Assembly: GCA_017531225.1 (NCBI GenBank)
Contig: JAFXLL010000010.1
Location: forward strand, 186,001 to 250,000
Length of the DNA stretch: 64,000 nt
Direction of reading: 5' to 3'
Source: Bacteroidales bacterium
GTDB taxonomy: Bacteria > Bacteroidota > Bacteroidia > Bacteroidales > F082
Position numbers and translations under genes: made by a program. Below, one piece after another: positions 12,308 through 46,100 of this stretch. Every line of letters begins with the position of its first letter. The stretch's first letter is position 1. The notes under the pieces were generated by a model. The model did not search any database. It was given only the letters and a program-made list of their open reading frames with translations, and had not been told where the DNA came from.

Positions 12308-13585
12308 TCAATGGGATTTTACGGTGGTGTAACCTATCAGTTCGTCATAGCCTTTGATGGCATTAAAATAATAGAAATAGAGACGGTAGATGTTGTTGGT
12401 ATCCCAGTAGTTGCCTTCAGTCAGATCAGTGGCGACCAGCCCAGTGCTACGGTTGGCGGTCACAAACATAAAGTTATAATAACCTTGTTTGAGAAACAAC
12501 TGACATAGATAGCCGCGCAGGTTATAGTCGTAATGCATCAGGTTGCGCTCGTCGAAACGCCAGTCGTTGACGGCACCCATTACATACACGTCCTCATCGC
12601 TAAAAGGCGTCGGGCAACGCAGAAAGATGTTAATCCAAGCGTAATCGGCCTCAGTAGCGGTTTCAAGGCCATCGTTGGCAACATAGATGTATTTTTCACC
12701 ATGGATATCGTCGTAAGTGACGTAAGGCTTTCTAACCCTTGGTTCACAGGTTGCGTAATCCACCACATAATAATCGTCGGTTTGATAGATATGGACGATA
12801 TTTTCCGACAGAAAATAGAAATTGCTGAAGTTGATGCGGCGATATTGGTTGGCGGCTTCGAACACCGTCATAGGGTTATGCTCGAATGAGATTTGGTCAG
12901 GATAGATGAACGACGGCTTGACGCCGATGGCTGCATTGTCCCACCGGCCATTTTGACGAATCGTCATGTTGGCGTAATCTTGCACATTGCCCGTCATGAT
13001 GCTCGACATGGAGACGCTTATATTAAGCTGTTGGTGTGTGTCACTAAGTGAAAGCTCGTCGCAATAACGTGGCACCGATACATTGATGGCTGCTTTCTCA
13101 TCGATAACCATAAAACGTCGTGTGAAATAGATCCCGTTTTCTGTAAGGTCGTCTTCATACACGATAAGCAGGTAGTTACCTGAGATTATGGGAAACATCT
13201 CTTCGTCAGGGAAGTGCAACTGGTAGTGAACATAGTCCACAAGGGTGTTTCTTGAGAACTCGTAGTCATCAATACGTCCATAATCAAATCCAACGGCATA
13301 GACACTCCTCATGATTTCGGAGGGGAGCCAGTTGTTGGAACAATGGATAAAGGTATAGTTCAGCGTCTTCCCTTCAGAGCCAAGCAGATCGAACCACAAG
13401 GTGAGGCGGTTCGTGGGATTGGCGAGTGGAATAATGGGCTCCTTGTTCTGGTTGCCATCAGCGAAAAGCGACACTGATGCCACAGACGACTTATAGTCGA
13501 GATCGGCGCAAGGCAATTCAAAGTCCTGACCGAAAGCGGACAAGGCGGCTATGATGGCGACAACGAAAAGGAGGTGCTTTTTCAT
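12308..13585 (-). CDS. Type IX secretion system plug protein (DUF5103 family)
   Basis: A 425-aa protein with a signal peptide (cleavage near SAFGQ). Features such as NPTNRLTLWFDLL and YTFIHCSNNWLPSEI match the DUF5103 family, whose Flavobacterium member is the Plug that closes the periplasmic side of the SprA translocon when PorV is not bound. Strand-rich throughout, without membrane helices, consistent with a periplasmic beta-domain protein. It sits 12 bases after the HIT gene and 2 bases before priA, in an operon otherwise unrelated to secretion. sprA lies in the same window at 40.2 kb. Family call confident from memory of the family; function by analogy. Confidence 0.85.
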   Translation of the reverse strand: MKKHLLFVVAIIAALSAFGQDFELPCADLDYKSSVASVSLFADGNQNKEPIIPLANPTNRLTLWFDLLGSEGKTLNYTFIHCSNNWLPSEIMRSVYAVGFDYGRIDDYEFSRNTLVDYVHYQLHFPDEEMFPIISGNYLLIVYEDDLTENGIYFTRRFMVIDEKAAINVSVPRYCDELSLSDTHQQLNISVSMSSIMTGNVQDYANMTIRQNGRWDNAAIGVKPSFIYPDQISFEHNPMTVFEAANQYRRINFSNFYFLSENIVHIYQTDDYYVVDYATCEPRVRKPYVTYDDIHGEKYIYVANDGLETATEADYAWINIFLRCPTPFSDEDVYVMGAVNDWRFDERNLMHYDYNLRGYLCQLFLKQGYYNFMFVTANRSTGLVATDLTEGNYWDTNNIYRLYFYYFNAIKGYDELIGYTTVKSH

Positions 13586-14494: not shown

Positions 14495-14537
14495 AAAAAA
14501 GGAGACCCTTACCGGAATAAGGGTCTTCCTTTTTTTC
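14495..14537. terminator. Terminator hairpin between PorV-like gene and greA, inside the likely greA leader
   Basis: The stem GGA-GACCCTTA / TAAGGGTC-T-TCC (one bulged T) with loop CCGGAA is flanked by A6 and T7. On the minus strand it can end the TonB-receptor/PorV operon. It also lies downstream of the -7 element at 14543-14551 and upstream of the greA ATG, which makes it a candidate attenuator. Confidence 0.85.
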
Positions 14538-14582: not shown

Positions 14583-15653
14583 TTAGAAAAGAAGTCTAGC
14601 ACCGATGCTGTGTGAGCCTTTGTAGCTGTAGGTTTGGCGGAATGCATAGTCGATGGCAATGACAGGAGCATTGTCTTTCTTGGACAACGGGACCTGGACA
14701 GAGGCGCCAGCGTGGAGACCTCTGTTGAGGTTCATGCATTGATCGTCAAGGATACCCTTGAAGATTCCACTTTCAAAGACATAACCGCAGCGCACCAGCA
14801 GCCATTCTCTCCAGCCATACTCAAGACCAGCAACGAATTGGTCTCTGGTGAAAGAGTTGGAGATGAAGTTACCAGCGACAGTCAGACGATGGGTCTCAGC
14901 GAAATGGAAGTCGTAAGCAGCGGCGATACTCAGTTGAGTAGGAAGCTCGAACTGGTCAGCACGTTGGATCACTGTCCATTGGAGAGAGCTGTTTGTGTTG
15001 AAGTAAGCTTTGAAAGCCAAACCGTCACCTGAGAAGGTCATCGTAGGTCCGATGTTCTTCAGGGTGATACCGAAGTGGATGTTGTCGAAAGGACCAGTGA
15101 CATACTGGATACCTGCGTCGAGAGCCACACCAGTAGCGCCCATGTTAGCGATGGACTCGCTGATGATCTTCAGGTTGAAGCCGCCGCTGATGCTGTTGGA
15201 GAACATCTTAGCAAAAGCGACATCAATATGCATAAGTGAAGGCTTAAAGGTACCGATACCACCGTCAGGGCTGTCGGTTGTGGTTTCCATGATCGTACCG
15301 GGGTTCAGTGTGAAGAATGAAATACCGAGAACGCCTGACTCACTCACGCGAATGGCGAGGCCAAACGATGAGATTCTCACGTTGGAGCCCTTCAGCCAAT
15401 CAGTATGTGAGAAATTGACGTCAAGTTGGCGGATGGTAGAGATACCAGCCACATTGCCAAACATAGCTTCAACACCTTTAACGAAAGACATACCGGCGTT
15501 GCCCCAGCCAGCCGAAGCTGCGAAGGGGTTGATCAACAACTCAGGAGCACCAGCCTGACCTGAACGGTCCTCATTACCTGCAAATGCCTTGGGAGCGCTG
15601 ACTCCAAGAAGGAGAACAAGGCTCATTACTATATATCTAAATGATTTCTTCAT
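14583..15653 (-). CDS. PorV/PorQ-family outer-membrane beta-barrel protein
   Basis: A 356-aa protein with a signal peptide (cleavage near KAFAG). Residues about 35-60 (PELLINPFAASAGWGNAGMS and VEAMFGNVAGI) carry the start typical of PorV/PorQ-family proteins, which are FadL-like barrels working with T9SS cargo. Amphipathic strands continue to a C-terminal GARLLF, a barrel end. PorV carries cargo from SprA to the sortase complex; this one is probably a dedicated paralog, because it is the last gene of an operon with a giant surface protein and a TonB-dependent receptor. The true PorV of the organism may lie elsewhere. Followed by a terminator. Confidence 0.83.
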   Translation of the reverse strand: MKKSFRYIVMSLVLLLGVSAPKAFAGNEDRSGQAGAPELLINPFAASAGWGNAGMSFVKGVEAMFGNVAGISTIRQLDVNFSHTDWLKGSNVRISSFGLAIRVSESGVLGISFFTLNPGTIMETTTDSPDGGIGTFKPSLMHIDVAFAKMFSNSISGGFNLKIISESIANMGATGVALDAGIQYVTGPFDNIHFGITLKNIGPTMTFSGDGLAFKAYFNTNSSLQWTVIQRADQFELPTQLSIAAAYDFHFAETHRLTVAGNFISNSFTRDQFVAGLEYGWREWLLVRCGYVFESGIFKGILDDQCMNLNRGLHAGASVQVPLSKKDNAPVIAIDYAFRQTYSYKGSHSIGARLLF

Positions 15654-15691
15654 GATTCTGAAATTTTTAAAGTTAGCATTTTTACGATAAA

Positions 15692-18600
15692 TTAGAACGT
15701 ATTCAAGTCAATCAGACGCATTGCACCGAAGAATTTAATCGTACGTTCGCTGCCGCTGGTGTTGTCCTTTACATGGATCAGGTAGAAACCTGAAGCCACC
15801 GGGGTGTTAGCGAAGTTGGTGAGATCCCAATCGATGGAAGCATCTTCATTATCCTTCTTAAACTGGCGGATCTTAGTACCACTCAGGTTGTAAATGGTAA
15901 CCGTACAGTTGTTTGGAAGGTTCGTGATCTTAACTCTGTTGTTCAGAGCATTCTTTTCGTATGAAGAGTATGCGTAGTAAGGATTAGGAACAACGGTGAT
16001 GAGGTCAAGGTCGCTTTGGGTCTTCTCTGGATCATTGTGTATCGGATTCAGACCTTCGATAGCGAAGCTGTACATCGGATACAGGTTGTTGGTATTCAAC
16101 TCAGGATAGATTGAGTCGAGTCCTACGTAGGAGTAACCTTGCTCGTAAGGATGCGACACGCGGATGCGGATCTTAGCATCATTGCGCTTACCAGTACCGT
16201 CGTCACCCAACCAAGGCATACCTTCAACGCCCATAGGCATACCGATATACTGGACTTGACGCCAGAGATACTGGCTCAAGACACTTTCAACTGAAGGCTT
16301 GTTCTGGAATCTGAAGAGGAGGTTGAAGACGTACTTACCACCATCGTAAGCAGGGCAAGCCAGCTCACCAGGAGCGAACTGAGAAGCAGGAGCATCAGTT
16401 GGGTTATCCATGCCAAAGATATAGACATAGTGACGAGCACCGAACACTTCTTCACCATCGACTGGACGATAGATGGCTGGATCAAGAGTTTGAAAAGCAC
16501 TGCCGTAATCGACAGTAGTCTTTTGCAGCATCGGAGGATTGAACATCATATCACGGCCATTGAGGTCAGAGAGATAGGAATCCTCACCATAGACGATATT
16601 CAGACGAGCGCCTGTTTCAACATCGATGACATAGCCCGGGAACCAACCCATACCCTGTGGGGAGATGAAGTTAGGATCTTCTGGATTGTCACTGATGTAC
16701 ATGGCTGCAGTGTCATTAGCCCAATCGTTGAATGGTTTGCCATCAACCATGTATGGATTACCGTTTTTGTCGATTGAAGCAGCTTTTCTGATGAAGTAAG
16801 GCTTAACACCGTTTTCAGACAGTTTGGGGTCTCTACACATTTCAACAACAGGGCAACGGGTCCACTTAGACTTATCAGAAGTCATCACGATATCAACACT
16901 GCTGAGTCTCTTGAAGTAATCAGTGTGACCGAGAGCGAAGCTGTTCGGAACAGGATAAACTGAATTTGTCTTGGTTGCGCATAGGAAGAATGGAGCCCAT
17001 GTGCCGTTAGCGATCTTTTCGAATGCTTCGTTCGGATCATAAGGCGTCATGTTGTTGTTCATGTTAAAGTCGTTGTAGGCAGTATTGACATTGTCATAAT
17101 ACTTACCGGAACGAATCCAGTTCAATGAAGAGGTAGGCGGGTTATCGTTATCGCGGATACCGTCAAGCCATTTCATGGTACTGTCTTGGAATGACAATGA
17201 AGAAGTGATCAAACCGCTGTTGTTAACAAGGACTTCCTTAGCAACATAGAAGTGCGGGTTGCTCTGGTCGTTGTCATACATATAACCGACATCAACTGGA
17301 CCAACATCATAAGGTTGAGTGATGGTGATTGAAAGACCTCTTTCGATGAACATCTTTTCATCTCCGTAAGCCGTAGTAGTATCGCTCATCATGACTTCGC
17401 CAGACTGCATGTCTTTCAGCATCCAGTGTGAAACCATACGTGAAGCTTCACTACCGGGTTGGCTATTTGCGAGAGAGATTGGTTGAGTCTCATCAATAGG
17501 AAGTTTCACTTGATTATTAGAGGATACATTCTTTGTCTTCACTTCAAACAGAGTGTCGAACCAAAGTGTGTAGTTGGTGGTCTGTACGTTCAGCGGGTCA
17601 ATAACCTTCACATCTAAAGGACCGTAGCCGATCTTATAATTAGGATGATAGATGATCGGGTAATCGGGGTGACCGAAAACGACTTTGTTGCCATTGGCAT
17701 CAATGGAGTTGGCGAGCTTCTTTGAGAAGAGGGTTTCAATATCTTCTTCAGAAAGTTCAAGTTCGTTGCCACCATTACCGACACCAACGATACGCTGGAT
17801 AGCAGGCTTCTGGCCATATTCGCATTGCATCACAGTACCGTTGACGATCTTATGAGGAACGGCGGAGTAGCAAGTGATGTTCTTACGACCTTCGAGGTAA
17901 GGCTTCTGCTGACCATAGAGGCCGAATGCATCGCTGGGCTCTTGTGAATAGGTCATGTAGTTGTTGTAGGCATAAGCCACTGCCATATAATAATAGGTCT
18001 TGTGGTTGATCAGCGCAGCGCTTTCGGAAGTAGAGAACAAGTCCTCGGTAACCACAAAGCTATGAGTAATGCCAGCATCGCCACCTTCAACCTTAAGTGA
18101 AGGAACGATGGCACCAATATGATCATCCCATTCATAGTTGACGAGCTTAGCCACACCGTTCTTAATATCGCATTGGAAGAGCAGACGAGCCTTGGAGTTA
18201 TCGGAGAGTTCATCAGCACCAACTTCATTATTGAGCAGCTGGTAGACTTTATAACCTTCGAAACGATAGTAACGGTCGCACTTCAATGTTGAGTCATCAG
18301 GACGATACTCTGGGATTTCAGGATCTACTTCAGTATAACCTTCTTTATAGTTGTTCGAGATAGCGCTATTAGAGAGATAGACAATGAGTTTCTGGTCGAG
18401 CTCACGGATGGTGAGGTCTGGAGCGCTCGGACCGTCGATAACCTTAAAGCAGTTGTCGAACAGAGCCTGGCACTTATCGTCAGTGACGCGGAGGAGTTCA
18501 ACAGAAGCGAGCGGGCCGCCTGAATTGGCGCGAGCCCACGGCACACCGAAGGTAATGTAGTTAACAGCACCTGGTTCCAGGGTGAAAGGACCAGCGGACT

Positions 18601-20254
18601 GCATGAAACGACGGTCGGCAGGTTCGTTACCAGCTTCGGAGTCGGTCCAATACTTACCATTCTGGTTGTAACCACTCTCTGGAGGAACGCCACCAGTACC
18701 CCAGTTGCACGGGTCAGTGTCGCCAGGGAACATGAAGTCGCAGGCTGGGCCAACGGTACCGGTAACGCCAGGATAAGCGTTGCCACCGTACATCATCTTG
18801 TTACCGTCTTTCCAAATACCTTGAAGCATCAGGTAGTAGTCGGCAGCATATTTCGGGTCACCAGTGTTAGAGTTGTCGTTGTTGTGATAGAGGAAACGGC
18901 GCATACCGAAACGTTCGTCGTCGATGATGCCGTTACCAAAGTTCACACCGTTGATTGATGCGTCGCAGATCTGAGTTGAGTCAATAGCGAAGAACAAGGA
19001 GTCACCGTTAGGAGCAAAACCAATGAATTGGTTATAATCATAGGTGTAGGTGTATTTGGGGTTATCTTGATTATCGGGATCCATGTAAGGACCTTGGAAG
19101 AAGTCGATACCCACCGCCGGAGGTTGGTCGCCGTAGGCTTCGGGTTGACCGCTACCGTCGATAGCTCTACCGTTGTAGCCATAACCAAGACCACGGGCAA
19201 CGTCGCAACCCACATAGTCATCTTGTGCATAACCGAGGTCCACGTCAGTCCAAGGGCAGAAATAGGTACCCTTGAGTTTGTATGTAGAACGGTTGATGAT
19301 TTCGTAGGAGCAGAATGACATGTTGTTGATTTCGTCATTGGTAGCGAATCCGAAAGCTTGTGCACGGATTTCAAGACCGATAGCGGAACCATGTGATTCG
19401 GTGTGTGAGTTACCTTTATCGTTGAACACCCACCACAGAGTTTGGTCACCTTTCAACACCTGGTCGGCGAGGATGGAACCGTGGACTGAACCACCAAGTT
19501 CTTCATCCATTGTAGCGGTCTTGGTGTGGCAGAGTTCATTTTCGATATCGTAATATGGGTAGTCACCCATCATAGGATTATATTCACCGTTCTTGTCGTT
19601 GTCATAGAAAGGAGCCATGTAGTGACTTACGCCTTCGGTGTTACCGCCGACGACTTCCGGGTGAGCCGGCCAATCGGTGATGATCTTAGGAATAGAATAA
19701 TTCGGATCCTCAACAAATTTACCATATCTTGCACCTGGAGCTGGTAAATCGCCTGTGCAGTGGTTGAGGAACTCATCGACTTCAGCGCGGGTGATTTTGA
19801 ACACTTGGTCCCACTGAGCGCAGGTGAACTCGTCGATAGCGGCACCTACAAGGGTCAGAGGGCCAGTCCAGAAGTCGTTACCACCTTTGAGGTCAGGGCC
19901 TTGGCGGAAACGCACTGCAGCGCATTTCAACTGGTTGTTGATGTCGAGACCGGCAATCCAAAGAGCACCGGCGAACAGGGAGGTTGCAGAACCGTTGGCA
20001 GGGATAAAGTACTGGGCTCCGATACCACCGGGGAGGTCCCACCACATATCACCACCAGCATTAATACGTGTTCTGACGTTGTTGATGTTCAACCATTCAA
20101 AAGCAGATGATGGAGAACATCCGGCTGTAGTCTGTTTCAGTTCGTTGGAACCTCTGTCGTTTCCACCGTCACCAACATAGACGTGAGCCTTTCCGGAAAT
20201 TGTAGCACCCATCATAAGGAGTGCGACAAACATTAGACGTGCTATATTCTTCAT
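15692..20254 (-). CDS. Giant secreted surface protein, probable T9SS client
   Basis: A 1520-aa exported protein with a signal peptide at residues 1-23. Residues about 97-133 (ALWIAGLDINNQLKCAAVRF and GNDFWTGPL) match a block I know from long Bacteroidetes T9SS-exported proteins. An Asp/Asn-rich segment at 217-226 (YDNDKNGEYN) resembles a calcium loop. KTYYYMAVAYAYNN near residue 765 suggests a fibronectin III-like domain. The C-terminus (VTIYNLSGTKIRQF, then SGFYLIHVKDNTSG) resembles a sorting domain but continues about 18 residues further, so is not a standard type A end. Middle gene of an operon with a TonB-dependent receptor upstream and a PorV/PorQ barrel downstream, 38-39 bases apart. 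Function unknown; surface display inferred. Confidence 0.8.
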   Translation of the reverse strand: MKNIARLMFVALLMMGATISGKAHVYVGDGGNDRGSNELKQTTAGCSPSSAFEWLNINNVRTRINAGGDMWWDLPGGIGAQYFIPANGSATSLFAGALWIAGLDINNQLKCAAVRFRQGPDLKGGNDFWTGPLTLVGAAIDEFTCAQWDQVFKITRAEVDEFLNHCTGDLPAPGARYGKFVEDPNYSIPKIITDWPAHPEVVGGNTEGVSHYMAPFYDNDKNGEYNPMMGDYPYYDIENELCHTKTATMDEELGGSVHGSILADQVLKGDQTLWWVFNDKGNSHTESHGSAIGLEIRAQAFGFATNDEINNMSFCSYEIINRSTYKLKGTYFCPWTDVDLGYAQDDYVGCDVARGLGYGYNGRAIDGSGQPEAYGDQPPAVGIDFFQGPYMDPDNQDNPKYTYTYDYNQFIGFAPNGDSLFFAIDSTQICDASINGVNFGNGIIDDERFGMRRFLYHNNDNSNTGDPKYAADYYLMLQGIWKDGNKMMYGGNAYPGVTGTVGPACDFMFPGDTDPCNWGTGGVPPESGYNQNGKYWTDSEAGNEPADRRFMQSAGPFTLEPGAVNYITFGVPWARANSGGPLASVELLRVTDDKCQALFDNCFKVIDGPSAPDLTIRELDQKLIVYLSNSAISNNYKEGYTEVDPEIPEYRPDDSTLKCDRYYRFEGYKVYQLLNNEVGADELSDNSKARLLFQCDIKNGVAKLVNYEWDDHIGAIVPSLKVEGGDAGITHSFVVTEDLFSTSESAALINHKTYYYMAVAYAYNNYMTYSQEPSDAFGLYGQQKPYLEGRKNITCYSAVPHKIVNGTVMQCEYGQKPAIQRIVGVGNGGNELELSEEDIETLFSKKLANSIDANGNKVVFGHPDYPIIYHPNYKIGYGPLDVKVIDPLNVQTTNYTLWFDTLFEVKTKNVSSNNQVKLPIDETQPISLANSQPGSEASRMVSHWMLKDMQSGEVMMSDTTTAYGDEKMFIERGLSITITQPYDVGPVDVGYMYDNDQSNPHFYVAKEVLVNNSGLITSSLSFQDSTMKWLDGIRDNDNPPTSSLNWIRSGKYYDNVNTAYNDFNMNNNMTPYDPNEAFEKIANGTWAPFFLCATKTNSVYPVPNSFALGHTDYFKRLSSVDIVMTSDKSKWTRCPVVEMCRDPKLSENGVKPYFIRKAASIDKNGNPYMVDGKPFNDWANDTAAMYISDNPEDPNFISPQGMGWFPGYVIDVETGARLNIVYGEDSYLSDLNGRDMMFNPPMLQKTTVDYGSAFQTLDPAIYRPVDGEEVFGARHYVYIFGMDNPTDAPASQFAPGELACPAYDGGKYVFNLLFRFQNKPSVESVLSQYLWRQVQYIGMPMGVEGMPWLGDDGTGKRNDAKIRIRVSHPYEQGYSYVGLDSIYPELNTNNLYPMYSFAIEGLNPIHNDPEKTQSDLDLITVVPNPYYAYSSYEKNALNNRVKITNLPNNCTVTIYNLSGTKIRQFKKDNEDASIDWDLTNFANTPVASGFYLIHVKDNTSGSERTIKFFGAMRLIDLNTF

Positions 20255-20292
20255 ATTAACTGTGATTTTCGTTATTGTTCTACCATCATTTA

Positions 20293-23200
20293 TTAGAAGT
20301 TAAAGCTGGCGCCAATCTTAATCTGACGAGGTGTCGAGTAGTTGCCACCATTGTTCACATAGATGCGGTACATGTCGATAAATGCTTGAGGATCCAACTG
20401 GTTGTTGATTTCCTGTGCATACTTTGAAGAGGTGAGATAACCATCGTCATCAGGATTACCAGTAGCGTTGTAAACATTCAGGATGTTCTTGGAGTTGAGG
20501 AGGTTCGTTATGTTAACATAGACATTGACGAAAGCCTCGCGACCAGTCTTTCCTTCCTTATTGCCACCCAAGTTGAAGTAGAAGTCCTTGTCAACACGGA
20601 GGTCGATCTTGAATGAAGCAGGCATTCTTGAACCGAAGTAGGTACCTTCGAGCAAGCTAGCACCACCAGAGATCGGGGAAATGACGGTACGTGAAGCAGT
20701 GTAAGGAGCACCTGAACCACCAGTAACTGTCATAGCGACACCTGCGTTAGCCAAAATTTGCAGCGGGCTCTTGCCTGACTTTTCGCGGTTGATGACAGGA
20801 CCATCATACTTCTTATCAGAACCGAAGCGGTAGTCAACGGTGAGGCTGAGTGCGTGACGGCGGTCAAAGCCGGTCGGGAAGGTTGATCTCAAGTTCGGCA
20901 CACCAGCGTTGATCAAAGCGGCAGCGGTCGAAGTAGAAGCACCAGTCATGTTAGCATACTGCAAGGTATAGTTGGCACGAATACGGATGTTCTTGGTACG
21001 ACGGAGGTCATATTCAGCGGTAAGACCCTTGGTGGTACCGAAGTCGAGGTTGCTGTAGGAGGTGTAGTCCTTAGGATAAGCACCAGTCAGACGGTACATC
21101 TGGATCATGTTACGGATCTCACGATAGTAAGCGGTAATGGTGAAGGATGAAGTGTTGTTGATCTTCTGGGTGAAACCGAGTTCATAGTCAACAGTCTGCA
21201 TCGGCTTCAAGTTCGGGTTAGCGATAGCGCCGGAGATATCATTAAAATAATAATAGGTGAGCGGGGTGATGAAATATGAACTTGAAGGACGCTGTGTCAA
21301 CACATCGTAGTGTGCGAAGAACAAAGCTTCATCAGAAATCGGGAATGAGAAGGAGATACGAGGCATGAAAGTCCAGCTGGGCTTGTAGTCTTCGAATGAC
21401 TCCTTGTCGACTCTCTGCTGGTCGGCCTTGACCAACCATGGGGAGATACCTGAACCCTTATCCAACACAGTGGGTGAAGAAATCAGGGCACCGTCGGCAT
21501 TGTACCAGTTGGTACCAGAACGGTAACCGACGATTTCTTGAATATCAGAAACTTTATTCACATAAACTGCGTAGTCGTCACCGATGTTGCTCGGAGGAGT
21601 GACATCCAGTCCTGAGTTGTCAATATGGATGACACCGTCGGCATTCTTCAGATCGCCCACAGTCTTATAGTCATATAGGATAAACTGATCTTTCAGCACG
21701 AACTGGTTAGCATCGAAACGGTCAGCACGGATACCGATTTGGAAGATAAGGTCTTTGAAAGCGAACTTATCTTGGATATAACCGGCAGTGTAGATCGGCT
21801 GACTTGATGCAACTGGACGTGCAAGGAAGGTGTTGCCGTTAGCATCAGTCATCTCCTTGGTGAAAAAGTCGTCGAGAGTAGGACGCTCGCTCCAGCCTTG
21901 CTTTTTACCATCGTAGGTGTAGCCATAGTATGACACATACAAGTTACCGTCACGGGTGAGTTCATCAGGTGAGAACATGCTGATGTTGAGACCACCGTTA
22001 ACGTGACCGTCGGTGTGCAACACGCCGTTTGCATCATAGTAGGAGATGGAGTTGTCATCGAAGTTATAGGAGTCGATGAGGATGTATTCTGTTCCGTTAA
22101 TCGGGAGACCCATAGCTTTACGGAGGTTCTTGTCGAACACATACTGAGCGTCAGCATCGTAGTATCTGTTGTAACGGATAGTATCGACAGTGCCATAATG
22201 TTCAATTGCATACGGGTTATCCACATCCAACTCTGAGATATGGGCGTTGACCAAACCGCGCATGAGAGTCCAGTAATCACTGCTGTAGCTCATGCCGCTG
22301 GTGTTACGCTGTTCGTATTGGAAACCGAGTTTCACTTCGTGTGAGCTCTCACCAGTACCAATGGTCATGGAGGCGTTGACGTTAAGTGAAATCTGGTCGC
22401 TGACGTACTTGCTATAGTTGTCCATCAAGGTACCAGGAGCGGCATACAAACCATAGATGGATGGAGCGCTTCTACCGTTCAACAGACCACCGTTGAGTTG
22501 GAGGTCGGTAAAGTTGTCATAATAACCTTGAGCGCCATAGATACCATAGAGGTCATAAACGTTCTGGGTATACTTAGCCAACAGCGGGTTGAATTGTGAA
22601 GCCTCGAAGGTAACCAAAGTATCATAGTCCCAGGAGTTCAGCACCATCACATTGGTAAAGTTCTGGTAAGAACCATCAGCCATAAGAACTGAGTCAACAT
22701 TGCCCAGTTGATAGGTAGGAGTCTTGTAGGTGGTGAAGCGACCGAGGTTGCCGTATGCGAAGACGTTGTTCCAAAGATCAGGATCGCCTGCCTCGTTGTT
22801 GTAACGGGTGTAGTCGGCTTGGATGCTATAGTAGAAGTTACGAATCAGAGAAGTGCTTTCAGGAGCCGTGGGGAAGCGCTGGGTGAAGCGGACATAACCA
22901 CGGATGGTGTTATCCTTTTCAATCGAGTTCTTAGCGGTATTGAAGTAGGAGTACGAACGAGCGAAGTTGTGATACATGCTACGATAGTACGAACCGCCGA
23001 TGGTGAGGTTGATGGTCTCGGTTGTACGGACGTTGATATTACCTGAGAGGTTGATTGACCAGTTGCTCGTATTGGTGGAGTACTTTGAGTAAACCAAATC
23101 TTCTTTCTTCACGAAGGAAGCCTTCTGGTAGGTACCTGAACCGATGCCTGAAGGAATGAGCGGGTTCTCAGAAATAGCTTTGTACAAAGAGTCGTTAACG

Positions 23201-24063
23201 GTGTAGAAACCAGTTGCTGAGAGGGCACCAACTCTATTGTAGGCGAGGTCACCTGCGAGGAAGAAGCCCAGCAAAGCTGTTTCATCGTTCTTACCCTTGA
23301 TGAGCGGTCCCTGGAGGTTGAAGCCCAAACGATTGCGGCCATAACCTTCAACTGAAGTTTCCAACTCGATACCGGCACCGAAGGTACGGCTCGGGCCCTT
23401 GGTGGTCACGTTGATGATACCACCCATAGCATCACCGTACATAGCGGGTGTACCACCCAAGATGACGTCCACCTGGTCGATAGCGCCCTGAGGCACGCTG
23501 GAGTTACCGATGACCTTAACACCGTCGATGTAGGTCACAGCGCCTTCACGTGAACCACGGATACTACCGACTTCACCGTCAGCCGAATACACACCACCAA
23601 CGGTGGAGGCAACGCCTGATGCGGAACGGTTAGGCAGTTTTGCGATTTCCTCTGCAGTGATGGATGCACCGGAAGTAGTGTTATCCTTCGAAATCAGAGG
23701 CACTTCGTAATCGATGACCGTGACTTCCGTCAAGCTGATGGCGCCACTTTGCATCTTAATGTTCCAATCGGTGATCTTGTTAGCAGGAATAACGATGCCG
23801 TTCAAGACATAGTTGTTGTAACCAACGAAGCTCGCCTTCAAATCATACGTTCCCGGAGGAATAGGGTTGATGTCGTAGTTACCATCGAAATCCGAAGTTG
23901 CACCGCCGACCATCGTACCGCCTTTTTCAAGGACGATGTTTGCGAATGACACGGGCTCTCCCGTTTCATCGGTAACCTTTCCTTTGAGTCGTCCTTGCTG
24001 AGCGAAAGCTAACGTGCACGTTGCCATCACAATTGCAAGGGTCATTAGTAAATTTCTAAACAT
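20293..24063 (-). CDS. TonB-dependent outer-membrane receptor
   Basis: A 1256-aa receptor: signal peptide ending TLAFAQ (about residue 21), a carboxypeptidase-regulatory-like domain (GRLKGKVTDETGEPVSFANI onward, about 24-110), a plug domain (ITAEEIAKLPNRS through GGIINVTTKG, about 135-220) and a long 22-strand-type barrel ending in the terminal aromatic (GASFNF). EVTVIDYEVPLI before the plug is the likely TonB-box region. It imports a substrate across the outer membrane using TonB/ExbBD energy. There is no SusD partner; instead it leads an operon with the 1520-aa secreted protein and a PorV/PorQ barrel. Substrate unknown. Confidence 0.92.
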   Translation of the reverse strand: MFRNLLMTLAIVMATCTLAFAQQGRLKGKVTDETGEPVSFANIVLEKGGTMVGGATSDFDGNYDINPIPPGTYDLKASFVGYNNYVLNGIVIPANKITDWNIKMQSGAISLTEVTVIDYEVPLISKDNTTSGASITAEEIAKLPNRSASGVASTVGGVYSADGEVGSIRGSREGAVTYIDGVKVIGNSSVPQGAIDQVDVILGGTPAMYGDAMGGIINVTTKGPSRTFGAGIELETSVEGYGRNRLGFNLQGPLIKGKNDETALLGFFLAGDLAYNRVGALSATGFYTVNDSLYKAISENPLIPSGIGSGTYQKASFVKKEDLVYSKYSTNTSNWSINLSGNINVRTTETINLTIGGSYYRSMYHNFARSYSYFNTAKNSIEKDNTIRGYVRFTQRFPTAPESTSLIRNFYYSIQADYTRYNNEAGDPDLWNNVFAYGNLGRFTTYKTPTYQLGNVDSVLMADGSYQNFTNVMVLNSWDYDTLVTFEASQFNPLLAKYTQNVYDLYGIYGAQGYYDNFTDLQLNGGLLNGRSAPSIYGLYAAPGTLMDNYSKYVSDQISLNVNASMTIGTGESSHEVKLGFQYEQRNTSGMSYSSDYWTLMRGLVNAHISELDVDNPYAIEHYGTVDTIRYNRYYDADAQYVFDKNLRKAMGLPINGTEYILIDSYNFDDNSISYYDANGVLHTDGHVNGGLNISMFSPDELTRDGNLYVSYYGYTYDGKKQGWSERPTLDDFFTKEMTDANGNTFLARPVASSQPIYTAGYIQDKFAFKDLIFQIGIRADRFDANQFVLKDQFILYDYKTVGDLKNADGVIHIDNSGLDVTPPSNIGDDYAVYVNKVSDIQEIVGYRSGTNWYNADGALISSPTVLDKGSGISPWLVKADQQRVDKESFEDYKPSWTFMPRISFSFPISDEALFFAHYDVLTQRPSSSYFITPLTYYYFNDISGAIANPNLKPMQTVDYELGFTQKINNTSSFTITAYYREIRNMIQMYRLTGAYPKDYTSYSNLDFGTTKGLTAEYDLRRTKNIRIRANYTLQYANMTGASTSTAAALINAGVPNLRSTFPTGFDRRHALSLTVDYRFGSDKKYDGPVINREKSGKSPLQILANAGVAMTVTGGSGAPYTASRTVISPISGGASLLEGTYFGSRMPASFKIDLRVDKDFYFNLGGNKEGKTGREAFVNVYVNITNLLNSKNILNVYNATGNPDDDGYLTSSKYAQEINNQLDPQAFIDMYRIYVNNGGNYSTPRQIKIGASFNF

Positions 24064-24130: not shown

Positions 24131-24138
24131 CAAAATTA
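24131..24138 (-). promoter_or_regulatory. Possible -7 element TAATTTTG for the TonB-receptor operon
   Basis: Minus-strand TAATTTTG fits TAnnTTTG and would give a leader of about 65 bases. The surrounding 259 bases between the divergent genes are very A+T-rich, so chance matches are likely. I see no gene in this gap. Confidence 0.35.
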
Positions 24139-24322: not shown

Positions 24323-24781
24323 ATGAAAAGGATAATCATCATCGTAGTTTTACTTATGGTTTCGGCAGGATTGCCGAGTTGCCACAGCGAATGGGAGAAT
24401 CCTAATCGCCTGACGGCCATTGTGGATTTCACCATCTACCCCAACTCCATTAGGGAATATGAACTCAATAACCCAGGCGGATTCAAATACTATTCATCCG
24501 ATCCCGAGAGCAACAGCCGAGGCATCCTCGTATATCGCGTTGACATGACCGAGTTCAGGGTTTGGGACCGACTGCCCCCAAACAGCCCTAACACTTGTTG
24601 CAACGACGAGGGAGAGTGCTCCCGTTTGGTAGCTGATGGCCTATTTGTCTTGGATAACTGTAACAATATCACTTACAACATCTTGGACGGAACCGTGTTT
24701 GAAGGAGAAGGAAGGTATCGCCTCTACCCCTACACTTACATGTTTGACGGAACGGCTTTGAGAATCACCTCCTACTATTGA
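24323..24781 (+). CDS. Small lipoprotein, possibly a Rieske-like fold without cluster ligands
   Basis: 152 aa with a signal peptide and lipobox-like LPSC (Cys near residue 20). The order of short strand blocks (VDFTIYPNSIREYELN, GGFKYY, GILVYR, FRVWDRLPPNSP, a Cys pair, LFVLDNCNN, ILDGTVFEGEGRYRLYPY) resembles a family of small Bacteroidetes lipoproteins with a Rieske-like fold. The CxH pairs that bind a 2Fe-2S cluster are absent; the Cys residues (CCNDEGEC) are arranged differently. So an electron-transfer role is unlikely without other evidence. Its stop overlaps the stop of the facing DAHP synthase gene. Probably leaderless. Confidence 0.75.
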   Translation: MKRIIIIVVLLMVSAGLPSCHSEWENPNRLTAIVDFTIYPNSIREYELNNPGGFKYYSSDPESNSRGILVYRVDMTEFRVWDRLPPNSPNTCCNDEGECSRLVADGLFVLDNCNNITYNILDGTVFEGEGRYRLYPYTYMFDGTALRITSYY

Positions 24782-39585: not shown

Positions 39586-40167
39586 ATGTACGCCTTCATC
39601 GCTGGAAAAATTGCTGAGATCACGCCTGCTTACGCCATTGTCGACAATCACGGCGTGGGATATTTCATCAACATCACACTTAACACTTTCGCCGCCATTG
39701 GCGAGCAGACCGAGGTGAAGCTGTACACGCATCTTCAAGTGCTTGAGGACGCACACAACCTATTTGGTTTCTACACCGCTAAGGAGCGTGACATGTTTGA
39801 GCTGCTGATCAGCGTCAGCGGCGTGGGATGCAACACTGCGCGACTCATCCTCTCGTCGCTTACCGTCAATGAGCTCAGCACCGCCATCGCCAATGAGGAC
39901 ATCAAGACCATCCAGGCTGTGAAGGGCATCGGCAGCAAGACAGCGCAACGCATCGTCGTTGACCTCAAGGATAAAGTGAGGAAAACCGACTATGCCGAGG
40001 AAATTGTCGAAGCTGTTGACAATACCGTCAAGAACGAAGCGTTATCTGCTTTGGTGATTCTTGGTTTCAGCAAGAACGCCGCCAGCAAGGCGCTCGACAA
40101 ATTGATGAAACAAACGCCTGACGCCCCTGTGGAAGTGTTGATCCGCGAAGCACTAAAACTACTATGA
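39586..40167 (+). CDS. ruvA: Holliday junction DNA helicase subunit RuvA
   Basis: 193 aa; binds four-way junctions and loads RuvB. The N-terminal OB domain begins MYAFIAGKIAEITPAYAIVD; the tandem helix-hairpin-helix motifs follow (FELLISVSGVGCNTARLILS and IQAVKGIGSKTAQRIVVDLK); the C-terminal domain III (SALVILGFSKNAASKALDKL) contacts RuvB. Its stop codon overlaps the sprA ATG (ATGA), so the two are cotranslated. Confidence 0.97.
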   Translation: MYAFIAGKIAEITPAYAIVDNHGVGYFINITLNTFAAIGEQTEVKLYTHLQVLEDAHNLFGFYTAKERDMFELLISVSGVGCNTARLILSSLTVNELSTAIANEDIKTIQAVKGIGSKTAQRIVVDLKDKVRKTDYAEEIVEAVDNTVKNEALSALVILGFSKNAASKALDKLMKQTPDAPVEVLIREALKLL

Positions 40168-43100
40168 GCATAATGAAACGACATATCATCCTTACCCTCT
40201 TGCTGGCCATCCTGATTCCAGGCTTTGCCCAGCAGCCTGACTCCACCCATTTGGTCTATCCCATACCCGAAAACCAGGGTGACCCCATGCAACAGCTCTA
40301 TAACCAATCGCCGTTGTATCTGCGCGATCCCGACAATATCACCCACGAGGTCATCTACGACCCCGTAACCAACCAATATACCTTCAAGCATAAGATTGGT
40401 GATTTCGAGTATGCTACACCGACCACCATGTCGCAACAGGAATACATGGATTACAAGAACCGTGAGGGCGTGATGAGTTTCTGGAAAGACCGTCGCAAAC
40501 AAAACGCACGTTCCACCACTGACGGCAACTCCATCATCCCTCCGATTTATGTGGGTGGCGAGGCTTTCGACCTTATCTTCGGCAGCAACACCATTGACAT
40601 CCGTCCGCAAGGCTCCGTTGACCTGACTTTCGGTATCAAGCACAACTACCGTGGCGACCCTTCCATGAGCGAACGCCAGAAACATAACACCAACTTCGAC
40701 TTCGACCAGGACATCCAGTTGAACGTCATCGCCAAAATTGGTGATAAGATCAATTTCAACATCAACAAGAACACCAAGGCTACCTTCAACTTCGAGGACC
40801 TGATGAAATTGAAATACGAGGGCAAGGAAGACGAGATCATCCAGTTGCTTGAAGCCGGTGACGTGAGCTTCCCCTTGAACAGCACCCTGATCACCGGAAC
40901 TCAGCGCCTGTTCGGCTTGAAGTCCAAACTGAAATTTGGAAAGACAACGGTTACCTCGGTGGTCTCCTATCAGGAAAGTGAATCGAAAAACATCGCAGTG
41001 CAGGGAGGTGCCCAGACCAACGAGTTCAACATCAGCTGCTTGGACTATGAAGAAAACCGCCACTTCTTCTTGAGCCAGTTCTTCAGGGAGCAATACGAAT
41101 CAGCATTGGCAACCCTGCCCACCGTCACCTCCAGCATCAACATCACCAAGATCGAGGTGTGGGTGACCAATACCAACTCAAGCACACAAGACACTCGTAA
41201 TATTTTAGCGCTCACCGATTTGGCCGAGGGTAAGGAAGAGTGGATCTACAACAAGGAAATCTCGCCCGCCAATACGGCAACCATCTATCCCCGCAACGCA
41301 GCCAATGACATGTTGGCTCGCATCGACACCACACAAATCCGCAACATCAGTACGGTGACCAATTACATGTCGGGCGACCCCTTACGCATCGGCAGGATGG
41401 GATATATGGCCTCTGGTCGTGATTTTGAGAAAATTGAGAACGCACGCCGTTTGAGCACCACTGAATACTCACTGAACTCCAAGTTGGGCTTCATCTCACT
41501 GAACGTCACACTGAACTCCAACCAAACGCTGGCTGTGGCATACCAATACACCATTGTTGGCAGTGATGAAGTCTATCAGGTAGGTGAATTCTCCGATCAA
41601 GGCATCGGCACTCCTAATGTTTTGGTTGCCAAACTGCTGAGAGGTACCACAGTGAACCCCTCCATGCCGATCTGGGACCTGATGATGAAGAACGTCTATA
41701 ACATCAAGGCGTATCAGATCAACTCCAGCGACTTCATGCTCAACATCTTCTACACTGGCAATTCCAACAACACGCCGATGGGCTACTTCACCGAAGGTCC
41801 AGATAACGTGAAAGGCGTATCGCTGCTCCATTTACTCGGTCTCGATAACTTAACCCAGCAGAACAACCCGATCCCTGGAGGTGATGGTGTATTCGACTTC
41901 ATCAATGGAGCACAAACCTCGGGCGGTACCATCAACTCTGCCAATGGCCGCATCTATTTCCCTGTGTTGGAACCTTTCGGCAGTCAACTGCACAAGATAT
42001 TTGGCGATAATATTGAGCTAGGCAACAAATACGCTTTCGATTCCCTCTATTCGATGACCAAAACCGCAGCGGAGCAATTCTCTGAGAAGAACAAATTCTC
42101 TTTGCGCGGCTATTACTCATCCCAGTCGGGCAGCGAGATCAGTTTGAATGTCATGAATGTGGCACAAGGCTCCGTAACGGTGACCGCAGGAGGCCGCACC
42201 TTGGTGGAAAATGTCGATTACACCGTCGACTACACCTTAGGCCGTGTGTCCATTATCAACGAAGGCATCTTGAACTCAGGCACCCCCATCAACATCTCGT
42301 TGGAGAGCAACTCCAGCTTCAGTGCCATGAGAAAGACCTTCCTCGGAGCACGCATTGAGCATGAGTTCAACCAAGACTTCCGTTTAGGTGGTACCGTCTT
42401 ATATTTGGGAGAGAAATCCTACACTCAAAAAATCAATTATGGCGAGGAAGCCATTGCCAATACCATCTATGGGTTTGACCTCAACTACTCCACCGAGGCT
42501 CGTTGGCTCACCAACTTCATCGACTGGCTGCCCGGCATCAGCACCAAAGCGCCTTCAAGAATTCGCTTCGACGGCGAGTTTGCCCGTTTCATCCCCGGCC
42601 TATCAAAATCAGTTGCTGAAAAAGGCACTTCTTACCTCGATGACTTCGAAGGAGCCAAGTCGACCATTGACCTAAGGCTTTACAGCCAATGGCATCTGGC
42701 CAGTACCCCACAGCACCAAGCCGACCTCTTCCCTGAAGCCGTAGCCAACACCGGTCGCGCTTATGGCATGAACAGAGCTAAGATGTCATGGTACACCATC
42801 GACCACACTGTTTTCTATGATCGCGGTGCCTCCATCCGTCCGAAAAACATCACCAACGACGAACTTTCAAGGCATAGTGTGCGTCAGGTGTTGGAAACCG
42901 AAATTTTCACCAAGGACATCCCGTCAGGCACCCCGACCAACATCTCTGTGTTCAACCTTGCCTACTTCCCGAAGGATCGTGGTCCATACAACTACGATGT
43001 AGCCGGAACCCCATACTCCTCTGGTGTCGACGAGAATGGCTCGCTGAACGATCCACAGTCGCGTTGGGCAGGTATCATGCGAAGAATGGAGACCACCGAC

Positions 43101-46100
43101 TTTGAGGCCACCAACATCGAATACATCGAATTCTGGATGATGGACCCCTTTGCTGATCCAGAGTATCAGAATAACCCAGGTAAGCTTTACATCAACTTGG
43201 GCGACATCTCTGAGGACGTACTCCGCGACGGTCGCAAATACTACGAGAACGGTATGCCTGAGACAGAAAGCGTCGTCAACGTGGATACCACCATTTGGGG
43301 ACGCGTTCCCGTCATGCAAGACCTGGTGGGTGCCTTCAGCACCAACTCCGATTCTCGTCAATACCAAGATGTCGGTTTCGATGGCTTGCGTGACACTGAT
43401 GAGCGCTCCTTCTTCCAAGAATCCTACCTTAACGAGGTGAAGCAGCAGTTCGGTGAAAGCTCACTTGCCTACCAAAATGCATTCAACGACCCATCAAGCG
43501 ATAACTACCATTACTTCAGATCATCTGATTGGGACGATGACGAGATTCACAGCAGCATTGTTGAAAGATATAAGTACTACAGCGGTACGGAAGGCAACTC
43601 TCCCTCCGACACTCAACGTACCGAATCATACACGACCAACAACACCACGTTGCCTGATGGTGAAGACATCAACTCCGACAATACCTTGAGCGAATCGGAA
43701 CGCTATTATCAATACGAGATTGAACTTGACCCCACCAAGATGGAGGTGGGCAAGAACCACATCGCCGACATTTACGAAGCCACCAATATTGCTTTGGCTA
43801 ACGGTCAAATCGGCACTGTGAAGTGGTATCAGTTTAGAGTTCCTGTGAAGCAACCCGATAGAGTTATCGGTAATATTGAAGGCTACTCATCCATCCGCTT
43901 CATGAGAATGTTCGTCCGCGAGTTTGCAAAACCTGTCGTACTGCGTTTCGCCACCCTCGACTTGGTAAAAGGCGAATGGCGCACCTATGCTCAGAACATC
44001 CAAGCCCCAGGCGAATACATACCTAACGATATCGCCAACGGAACTACCCTTGATGTCTCAGCTGTCAACATCGAAGAAAACGGCCGTCGTTCACCCGTGC
44101 CTTACGTCATCCCGCCAGGCATCGCTCAGGAACAGATTGTTGGTACTACTGCCGTCACGAAACTCAATGAACAGTCGCTTCAGTTGACCATCCACAACCT
44201 TGTTGACGGTGACGGCCGAGCTATTTACAAGACTACTGATTTCGACCTAAGGCAGTATAAGTACCTTAAGATGTTCGTCCACGCTGAAAAAGCGAACGAG
44301 GAAGATATCCTTGAAGACCAGGATCTCACCGTGTTCCTGCGATTAGGTTCCGACTTCACGGAGAACTATTATGAATATGAAATCCCTCTTAAGATGACTC
44401 CGTGGTACACCGCTGCCACCAACAAGGAAGCCATCTGGCCTGAGATCAACAATTTCGACATCCTGTTGGAAGACCTGGTCTCCGTGAAAGAGAACCGTAA
44501 CGCCGCCTTGAGCCAACCCGGCAGCAATGTGAAGTTAAACTTCATCTATGCCGAACGTTTCAAGAAAGGCTCTGTCGATGGCAAGGACTATTACCATACC
44601 ATCAAGGTGATCGGTAATCCTTCCATCAGTGATGTGGAAGCCATGATGGTCGGTGTTCGCAACCCCAAGCGTCAATCGCTGGGAAGCACTACTGACGACG
44701 GCGAGACCAAGAGTGTGGTGGTGTGGATCAACGAATTGCGCCTCACCGACTTGAGCAGCAAGGGAGGTTTCGCCGGTACGGGTCACTTTGAAGCCACACT
44801 GGCCGACTTGGGACGTTTTGTGATGACCGGCACCTACAGCTCTGGCGGATTTGGTGCACTTGACAGTGACATTACCGACAACACCTTCGAAGCCAACTCC
44901 CAGTTCAGTGTCTCCACTGACCTCGAGCTCGGTAAATTCATCGAAAACACAGGCGTCAAGCTTCCATTGCACATCGACTATGGTAAGAACGTGACCACCC
45001 CGATGTACAACCCATACGACCCCGACATCAAGTTTAACGACGCCCTTGCAGCACTGCGCACAGACAAGGAGCGGGATTCGTTGACCTCCATCGTTCACAG
45101 CATGACGCAGTACAAGAACATCAACTTGATGAACGTCAGAAAAGAACGTACCGCTGGACGTCCTAAGAAAGGTGATGACAAAGGTGATAAGCAGGAAGAG
45201 AAGACCAACCCAAGAGACCCGAACAATAGGAACAAAAGCGTAGGACGTAGCGCTCCAAAGGTCCATATCTACGATATAGAGAACTTCAACCTCTCCTTCT
45301 CCTATAGTGAGACCAACCAGGAGAATCCCGACATCAACTACTTCAACACCAAGACCTACCGAGGAAGCCTCGGATATAACTTTGTAAACAATCCGAAGAA
45401 CGTTGCGCCTTTCTCCAAGGCCAAGTGGGCATCAAAACCCTATCTCGCCATCATCAAGGACATCAACTTCTACTACCTCCCGAAGAGCATCTCCTTCAGC
45501 ACCGACATGAACCGCTTCTATTCGGAGAAACTGATGCGTAATAAGAGTGGCGGAGAAATCATCATCAAGCCAACGGTCTCCAAGCAATGGGACTGGAATC
45601 GCAACTACCAGTTCCGTTTCGACCTCACCAAGGGATTGACGTTTGAATATTCAGCACAGGCTCAAGCATACGTGTACGAACCTGCGGGCAACCCCGACAA
45701 AGGCACCGAAGAATGGAAACTCAACCAAGACACCATCAAGAATGAGTTGAAGCATCTTGGCTCCATGTCGCAATTCCATCAGACAGTCAACGTCAACTAC
45801 ACCATCCCGATCAATAAGCTTCCGCTTTTGAACTGGGTCACTGCAACCGCCAGCTACCAGGGACAGTATTTCTGGACTGCCTCGGCACAATCCATCCAGG
45901 ATCGCTTAGGCAACACCATCGAGAACTCCCATGCCATCCAAGGCAGTGCAAATCTTGACTTCACTAAGATTTACAACTCCATCCCTTATCTGAAGAATCT
46001 CAACCAACCAGCAAGGAACAAGAGCAACAAGAGCGGCAAAAACGAAAAAGACCAGAAGCCCAAGAAAGGTGACAAGGACGAAACCGCCGACAGCACCAAT

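Follow-up and report, generated by a model that had tools for sequence, protein, structure and literature searches.

Among the closest described systems are surface complexes of the type IX secretion system (T9SS). The PorQ:PorZ and PorV:PorU subcomplexes, consistent with a 1:1 stoichiometry in the sections of PMC5562754 that treat them, keep tail-bearing proteins on the cell surface, and for type B proteins the relevant sections of PMC12618676 and PMC9143113 describe cognate PorP/SprF barrels that help to determine the destination. Here we describe a three-gene operon of a Bacteroidales bacterium (family F082, assembly GCA_017531225.1), found in a window of 64,000 nucleotides (contig JAFXLL010000010.1, positions 186,001 to 250,000), which is the whole stretch of DNA that was analysed. 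The operon encodes a TonB-dependent receptor, a giant exported protein (hereafter the giant) and an outer-membrane barrel of the PorV/PorQ family; this trio joins two known kinds of parts. Our preferred reading, to which we give a probability of about 55%, is that the operon makes a capture and import unit at the outer membrane, with a T9SS-delivered giant, placed on its own barrel, in SusD's place. No published description of the trio was recognised in the literature searched, preprints and most subscription papers lying outside its scope.

An earlier note on this DNA had read three minus-strand genes, 38-39 bases apart and closed by a terminator, and had named the products as a TonB-dependent receptor, an exported protein of 1520 amino acids (aa) and a PorV/PorQ-family barrel. 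The open reading frames (ORFs) bear out this layout, with both gaps at 38 bases, and Pfam and NCBIfam domain scans agree with the three identities. The terminator behind the barrel gene has a folding energy of -23 kcal/mol and a z-score of -5.3, and none of 200 shuffles was equally good; across the whole region terminator-like sites (9 found, 11.7 expected) are not above chance. Because this hairpin with its U-tract follows the barrel gene, the adjoining greA is probably separate, and it was ruled out as an operon member.

The conserved three-gene order exceeds chance. Both partners were found beside full-length giants in 19/19 regions of relatives, 70/74 named genome loci and 30/35 loci of a phylum-wide sample, the last comprising 5/5 in the giant's own class and 25/30 in other classes. 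After removal of three identical copies shared by the first two samples, 125 distinct full-length copies with sufficient flank remain, of which 116 have the order receptor-giant-barrel; these loci were found via the giant, and the count is uninformative on receptors or barrels living without one. The rare co-occurrence that would have spoken against the earlier note was thus not seen. Over 124 trios the two gaps have medians of 30 and 32 bases. Of 30 loci from the same genus, the window's included, 29 have both partners within 1.5-kb flanks, and the lone miss starts at a contig end. Matches to the giant occur in 75 of 101 genomes, its own included (59/60 others of the genus, 15/40 from other families of the order), a count that includes a few fragments or a short paralogue (e.g. 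G014, G019, G028). Phylum-wide, 168 of 296 genomes match the family at E<=0.001, many in the tail alone. Behind the trio, greA was found in 18 of the 20 Bacteroidales regions, a point in favour of vertical inheritance. At locus L061 just 565 bases follow the gene, so barrel loss is unproven there. The barrel at L074 (12576-13659) and the receptor at L227 (1724-4541) are each split over two reading frames, perhaps through assembly errors or decay.

The barrel belongs to the PorV/PorQ family (NF033709, 131.7 bits against a cut-off of 90), as do 10/10 further trio barrels, but scores far under the equivalog models for PorV (NF033710, 63.7 against 250) and PorQ (NF033711, 60.8 against 220). In a tree of 101 PorV-family proteins, for which 101 of 155 barrels were used and 18 loci of the genome_contigs set were sampled, the 71 barrels of canonical trios form a single branch (support 100/98) that is distinct from PorV and PorQ. 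Two barrels from outside trios, on long branches (L264, L268), group beside it, and 17 barrels of the divergent trios and barrel-only pairs described below form another group with weak support (58/90); the PorQ branches are long and the deeper order is unsure. Model scores and the separate branch led us to reject the trio barrel as a true PorV or PorQ. The genome itself encodes a T9SS: SprA exceeds its cut-off of 200 widely (2488.7 bits), and PorU, PorV and PorQ are above theirs. No PorZ match above cut-off was found in this genome, though PorQ is present above cut-off. The genome has 100 places with a T9SS tail.

All three trio proteins start with an ordinary signal peptide (read by eye). The giant's sole match in the domain libraries is a weak T9SS tail at its C-terminus, with no other named Pfam domain. 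As expected of a T9SS type A substrate, it combines the signal peptide with a tail above the TIGR04183 cut-off (26.3 bits against 23); the Pfam model Por_Secre_tail stays below its own (19.4 against 27). The tail is of the PorZ type: its sequence and predicted fold are nearest to PorZ/PorU tails, the fold being closest to PorZ, and its length is near the 96-108 that the relevant part of PMC11285876 gives for PorZ-type C-terminal domains (CTDs). The PorZ model matched 51/51 trio tails and 3/28 ordinary T9SS tails. The former are 137 tails thinned at 60% identity to 50, with the window's added; the latter come from 30 loci in four genomes, less two in the wrong reading frame (L237, L252), and are the best TIGR04183 scorers, hence biased to ordinary tails. 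Eleven loci at which a script saw one partner were excluded from both sets, and an earlier, small control set of 12 tails (9 non-redundant), picked by likeness through the giant's own tail profile, was left unscanned. The giant was rejected as a PorZ orthologue, since NF052228 reaches 29.5 bits against a cut-off of 260 and matches the tail only. A type B CTD with a PorP partner was rejected as well; TIGR04131 matched 1/51 trio tails at E<=0.1, and the library scan of the giant gave no match to it.

In the N-terminal half of the giant, structure prediction places a beta-sandwich that resembles the N-terminal domain of glucodextranase and of GH94/GH65/GH116-type enzymes. PorZ beta-propellers are not among the matches listed in that fold search, which excludes nothing. 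The middle third (residues ~800-1400) is predicted with a mostly high confidence score (pLDDT >90) and was barely covered by the fold searches. A solved relative was sought by sequence in the PDB and none was found at E up to 1. Short paralogues at four loci (L036, L037, L039, L040) consist of the giant's N-terminal part alone (482-525 aa), each beside a protein of 421-476 aa. Both of the two neighbours tested have a T9SS tail and one has a GLUG motif; no receptor or barrel stands beside these four paralogues.

The receptor carries CarboxypepD_reg, CarbopepD_reg_2, Plug and TonB_dep_Rec above the Pfam cut-offs, and hence the CarboxypepD_reg-like domain and plug of a SusCD receptor. The giant has no Pfam match to a SusD family, and its genome has none to PF07980 or PF14322, in a search for which the genome of Bacteroides ihuae, used as a control, was positive. 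The absence of SusD claimed by the earlier note therefore holds for the operon and the genome with these two models, and a SusD in disguise was rejected for the giant. A lipobox pattern, as expected of the surface lipoprotein in SusCD, occurs in 0/79 giants.

The layout recurs within genomes, as befits the SusCD-like arrangement that the earlier note had proposed. Profile searches and inspection of regions gave 20 copies of receptor, T9SS-tail protein and barrel in four distant genomes, with 2 to 10 in each (G130 10, G288 4, G394 4, G118 2). Two copies in G130 (L214, L220) have a small ORF between the receptor and the middle gene, and one in G118 (L231) has an extra ORF of 595 aa. Five of the 20 layouts are canonical and 15 have divergent middle proteins; 8 of these give weak matches over much of the length of the giant's profile, and 7 match it at the tail only. 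With a profile built from trio receptors, the best scorers (best segment score, ranking read by eye) were exactly the receptors that precede a barrel: 11 in G130, 4 in G288, 5 in G394 and 2 in G118. This pairing indicates that receptor and barrel travel jointly and the middle protein varies. G130 and G394 each have one extra receptor-barrel pair (L222, L229) that lacks the middle gene and is followed by an NHL-repeat protein. At these two loci, which belong to two genera, a lipoprotein-like gene (512-539 aa) precedes the receptor, and no T9SS-tail protein stands between receptor and PorV-family barrel. Among 20 scanned neighbour genes, chosen by eye and not at random and several of them without a family, glycoside hydrolases flank a single trio (L226, with a GH43 gene ahead of the receptor and a GH88 gene after the barrel). 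Other neighbours are GntR/FCD, RpiR or IclR regulators, a solute-binding protein, an amidase and peptidyl-prolyl isomerases (PPIases). A PPIC-type PPIase-domain gene stands immediately before the trio receptor at L215 and L224, in two genera.

On the preferred reading, the giant would be exported by Sec and then by the T9SS, the window itself containing the gene for the translocon SprA. The giant's PorZ-type CTD would be retained, uncut by the sortase PorU, and bound by the co-encoded barrel. By the logic of PorQ:PorZ, PorV:PorU and the type B-PorP/SprF pairs, the barrel would be expected to receive the giant from SprA and keep it by the receptor, both a shuttle and a permanent anchor, in the manner of PorQ with PorZ or PorV with PorU. 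So anchored, the giant would cover the receptor and capture a ligand, a glycan being the likeliest, for import driven by TonB, and would fill the part played in SusCD by the lipoprotein SusD. Export by the T9SS and attachment to the giant's own barrel are very probable, and cooperation between giant and receptor is probable; glycan uptake as the trio's job is put forward tentatively, with the odds somewhat against it. The earlier note had supposed a surface complex in which the exported protein, held by its own PorV-type barrel, serves the receptor. That idea is partly supported. A dedicated PorV-type barrel stands, the canonical trio barrels sharing one branch, and so does a T9SS-type giant whose PorZ/PorU-kind CTD fits a barrel hold; the idea gains a concrete anchor model and has survived the co-occurrence test, and contact, surface location, dependence on SprA, substrate and transport we still infer.

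The PorZ-type tail would also suit a second complex for surface processing or attachment, similar to PorU-PorV-PorQ-PorZ, with a giant that handles the cell's own lipopolysaccharide (LPS) or surface glycans and a TonB receptor that provides energy or moves an envelope ligand and not a nutrient. PorZ delivers anionic LPS according to the relevant section of PMC8545088, and the giant's single copy and the retention of greA beside the trio in 18/20 Bacteroidales regions agree with such a role. Uptake, however, fits better with trios whose number rises to 10 in a single genome and whose middle proteins vary, and with the one between GH43 and GH88 genes, and the ORFs of the window place no sortase or LPS gene within the operon; we consider this complex unlikely. 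That giant and barrel are an anchored adhesin or S-layer-like protein, with a receptor merely co-expressed and out of contact, recalls the type B adhesins, which pair with PorP/SprF barrels and for which no TonB receptor is mentioned in the pertinent sections of PMC12618676, where TonB has 0 occurrences, and of PMC9143113. It appears quite unlikely, given a receptor that comes first in 116/125 copies and barrel-linked receptors that are the best-scoring set in four genomes. Finally, the giant could be ordinary T9SS cargo served by the housekeeping PorV and cut by PorU, in a gene order that is merely historical. The genome does encode PorV and PorU, and PorV is said in part of PMC12618676 to recognise all type A CTDs, but a PorZ-type tail in 51/51 trio tails, barrels on their own branch and trios with differing middle proteins make this very improbable.

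Several observations weigh against the capture and import unit itself. According to section 2.4 of PMC11285876, the extra hairpin of PorZ and PorU did not decide cleavage in a published test, and a PorZ-like tail is therefore no proof of retention. The PorU model also matched 19/28 control tails, and the general tail model 48/51 trio tails. Nine of the 125 distinct full-length relatives have no trio. Four belong to the named loci (L127, L128, L132 and a second copy in L144) and five to other classes (two in L197, one in L209, two in L211). The first four retain the giant-type tail (105-170 bits); the trio-bearing L123 and L126 share record prefixes with L127 and L132, and the trio-less L144 copy sits directly behind a trio. 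The family is by no means universal: no match was found in 128 of the 296 genomes of the phylum, and in the own class seven genomes besides the giant's own match at E<1e-200, the others listed lying at 2e-4 to 7e-10. Foldseek scores for the N-terminal half are weak (best E 3.3e-4, TM 0.23), and a predicted fold shared with carbohydrate-active enzymes shows no function. The giant is a single copy in its genome, and its trio lies by greA and a HIT protein gene and not by sugar genes, which may suggest a housekeeping role. Read by eye, the ORFs beside this trio include no recognised carbohydrate-active enzyme.

If the capture and import unit is real, the T9SS would also build import machines with several dedicated PorV-type anchors, beyond releasing cargo or anchoring it to sugar, in contradiction to the working rule that type A signals share one shuttle, PorV. 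It would help to address why some signal domains are cut and others retained, a question left open by the authors in the pertinent part of PMC11285876. It would also provide a nutrient-uptake route for SusD-less members of the phylum, such as the bacterium studied here, and a role for a large conserved protein in which Pfam recognises nothing apart from the tail.

The features of the window are collected in Table 1. The element upstream of the receptor gene resembles the -7 box that promoters of Bacteroidota carry. The idea that a riboswitch might point to the cargo was dropped: in the window, L042, L045 and L048, two tRNAs were the sole matches at gathering scores. Divergent to the receptor lies a lipoprotein-like gene of 152 aa (24323-24781, plus strand) with no Pfam or NCBIfam family, a relative of which stands beside the trio in 7/20 regions (L041, L042, L045, L051, L057, L059, L060).

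Table 1. Positions of the trio and of associated features within the window.
Feature	Position	Strand	Basis
TonB-dependent receptor gene, first of trio	20293..24063	minus	ORF, 1256 aa; CarboxypepD_reg + Plug + barrel; family alignment
Giant exported protein gene, middle of trio	15692..20254	minus	ORF, 1520 aa; family alignment
Dedicated PorV/PorQ-family outer-membrane barrel gene, last of trio	14583..15653	minus	ORF, 356 aa; NF033709, tree
N-terminal part of giant, residues ~46-605	18440..20119	minus	predicted beta-sandwich
PorZ-type C-terminal T9SS domain of giant, residues ~1409-1513	15716..16030	minus	PorZ-model match, predicted fold
Intrinsic terminator, between barrel gene and greA	14503..14526	minus	hairpin + U-tract
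TAnnTTTG element, putative -7 box, upstream of receptor gene	24131..24138	minus	inference; TTG ~20 bases further upstream
T9SS translocon SprA/Sov	40164-47534	plus	TIGR04189, 2488.7 bits
T9SS plug protein	12308-13585	minus	library match

The trio may represent an additional major class of TonB-coupled receptor complexes at the cell surface in this phylum, next to the SusCD-type and lipoprotein-capped ones, a proposal that we rate just short of an even chance. In such a class a T9SS-delivered capture subunit with an uncut signal domain would sit on a dedicated PorV/PorQ-family barrel; such complexes would be old enough to occur across class borders within the phylum and might stand in for SusCD in SusD-less lineages. 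With SusCD the trio shares a CarboxypepD_reg receptor encoded beside one large secreted partner, repetition within each of four distant genomes and, in one copy, adjoining glycoside hydrolases. It would work like SusCD but is no member, because it lacks SusD and the lipobox; its partner has a T9SS tail instead, and a PorV/PorQ barrel is the third gene. Like PorQ-PorZ and PorV-PorU, it combines a PorV-family barrel with a T9SS protein that has a PorZ/PorU-type CTD, but models and tree alike set the barrel apart from both PorV and PorQ, the giant resembles PorZ at the tail and not outside it, and the unit includes a TonB receptor. The type B proteins with PorP/SprF-like barrels (SprB-SprF, PG1035-PorP), as treated in parts of PMC12618676 and PMC9143113, likewise have a substrate co-encoded with its own barrel as shuttle and anchor; the trio differs in barrel family and CTD class, and in its TonB receptor, which those parts do not mention for type B. 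BamG-BamH of the Bacteroidota beta-barrel assembly machinery (BAM) complex similarly binds a FadL-type barrel to a large surface protein (relevant sections of PMC12611786 and PMC12578637), but there BamH is a lipoprotein and a part of BAM, described in those sections with no T9SS tail.
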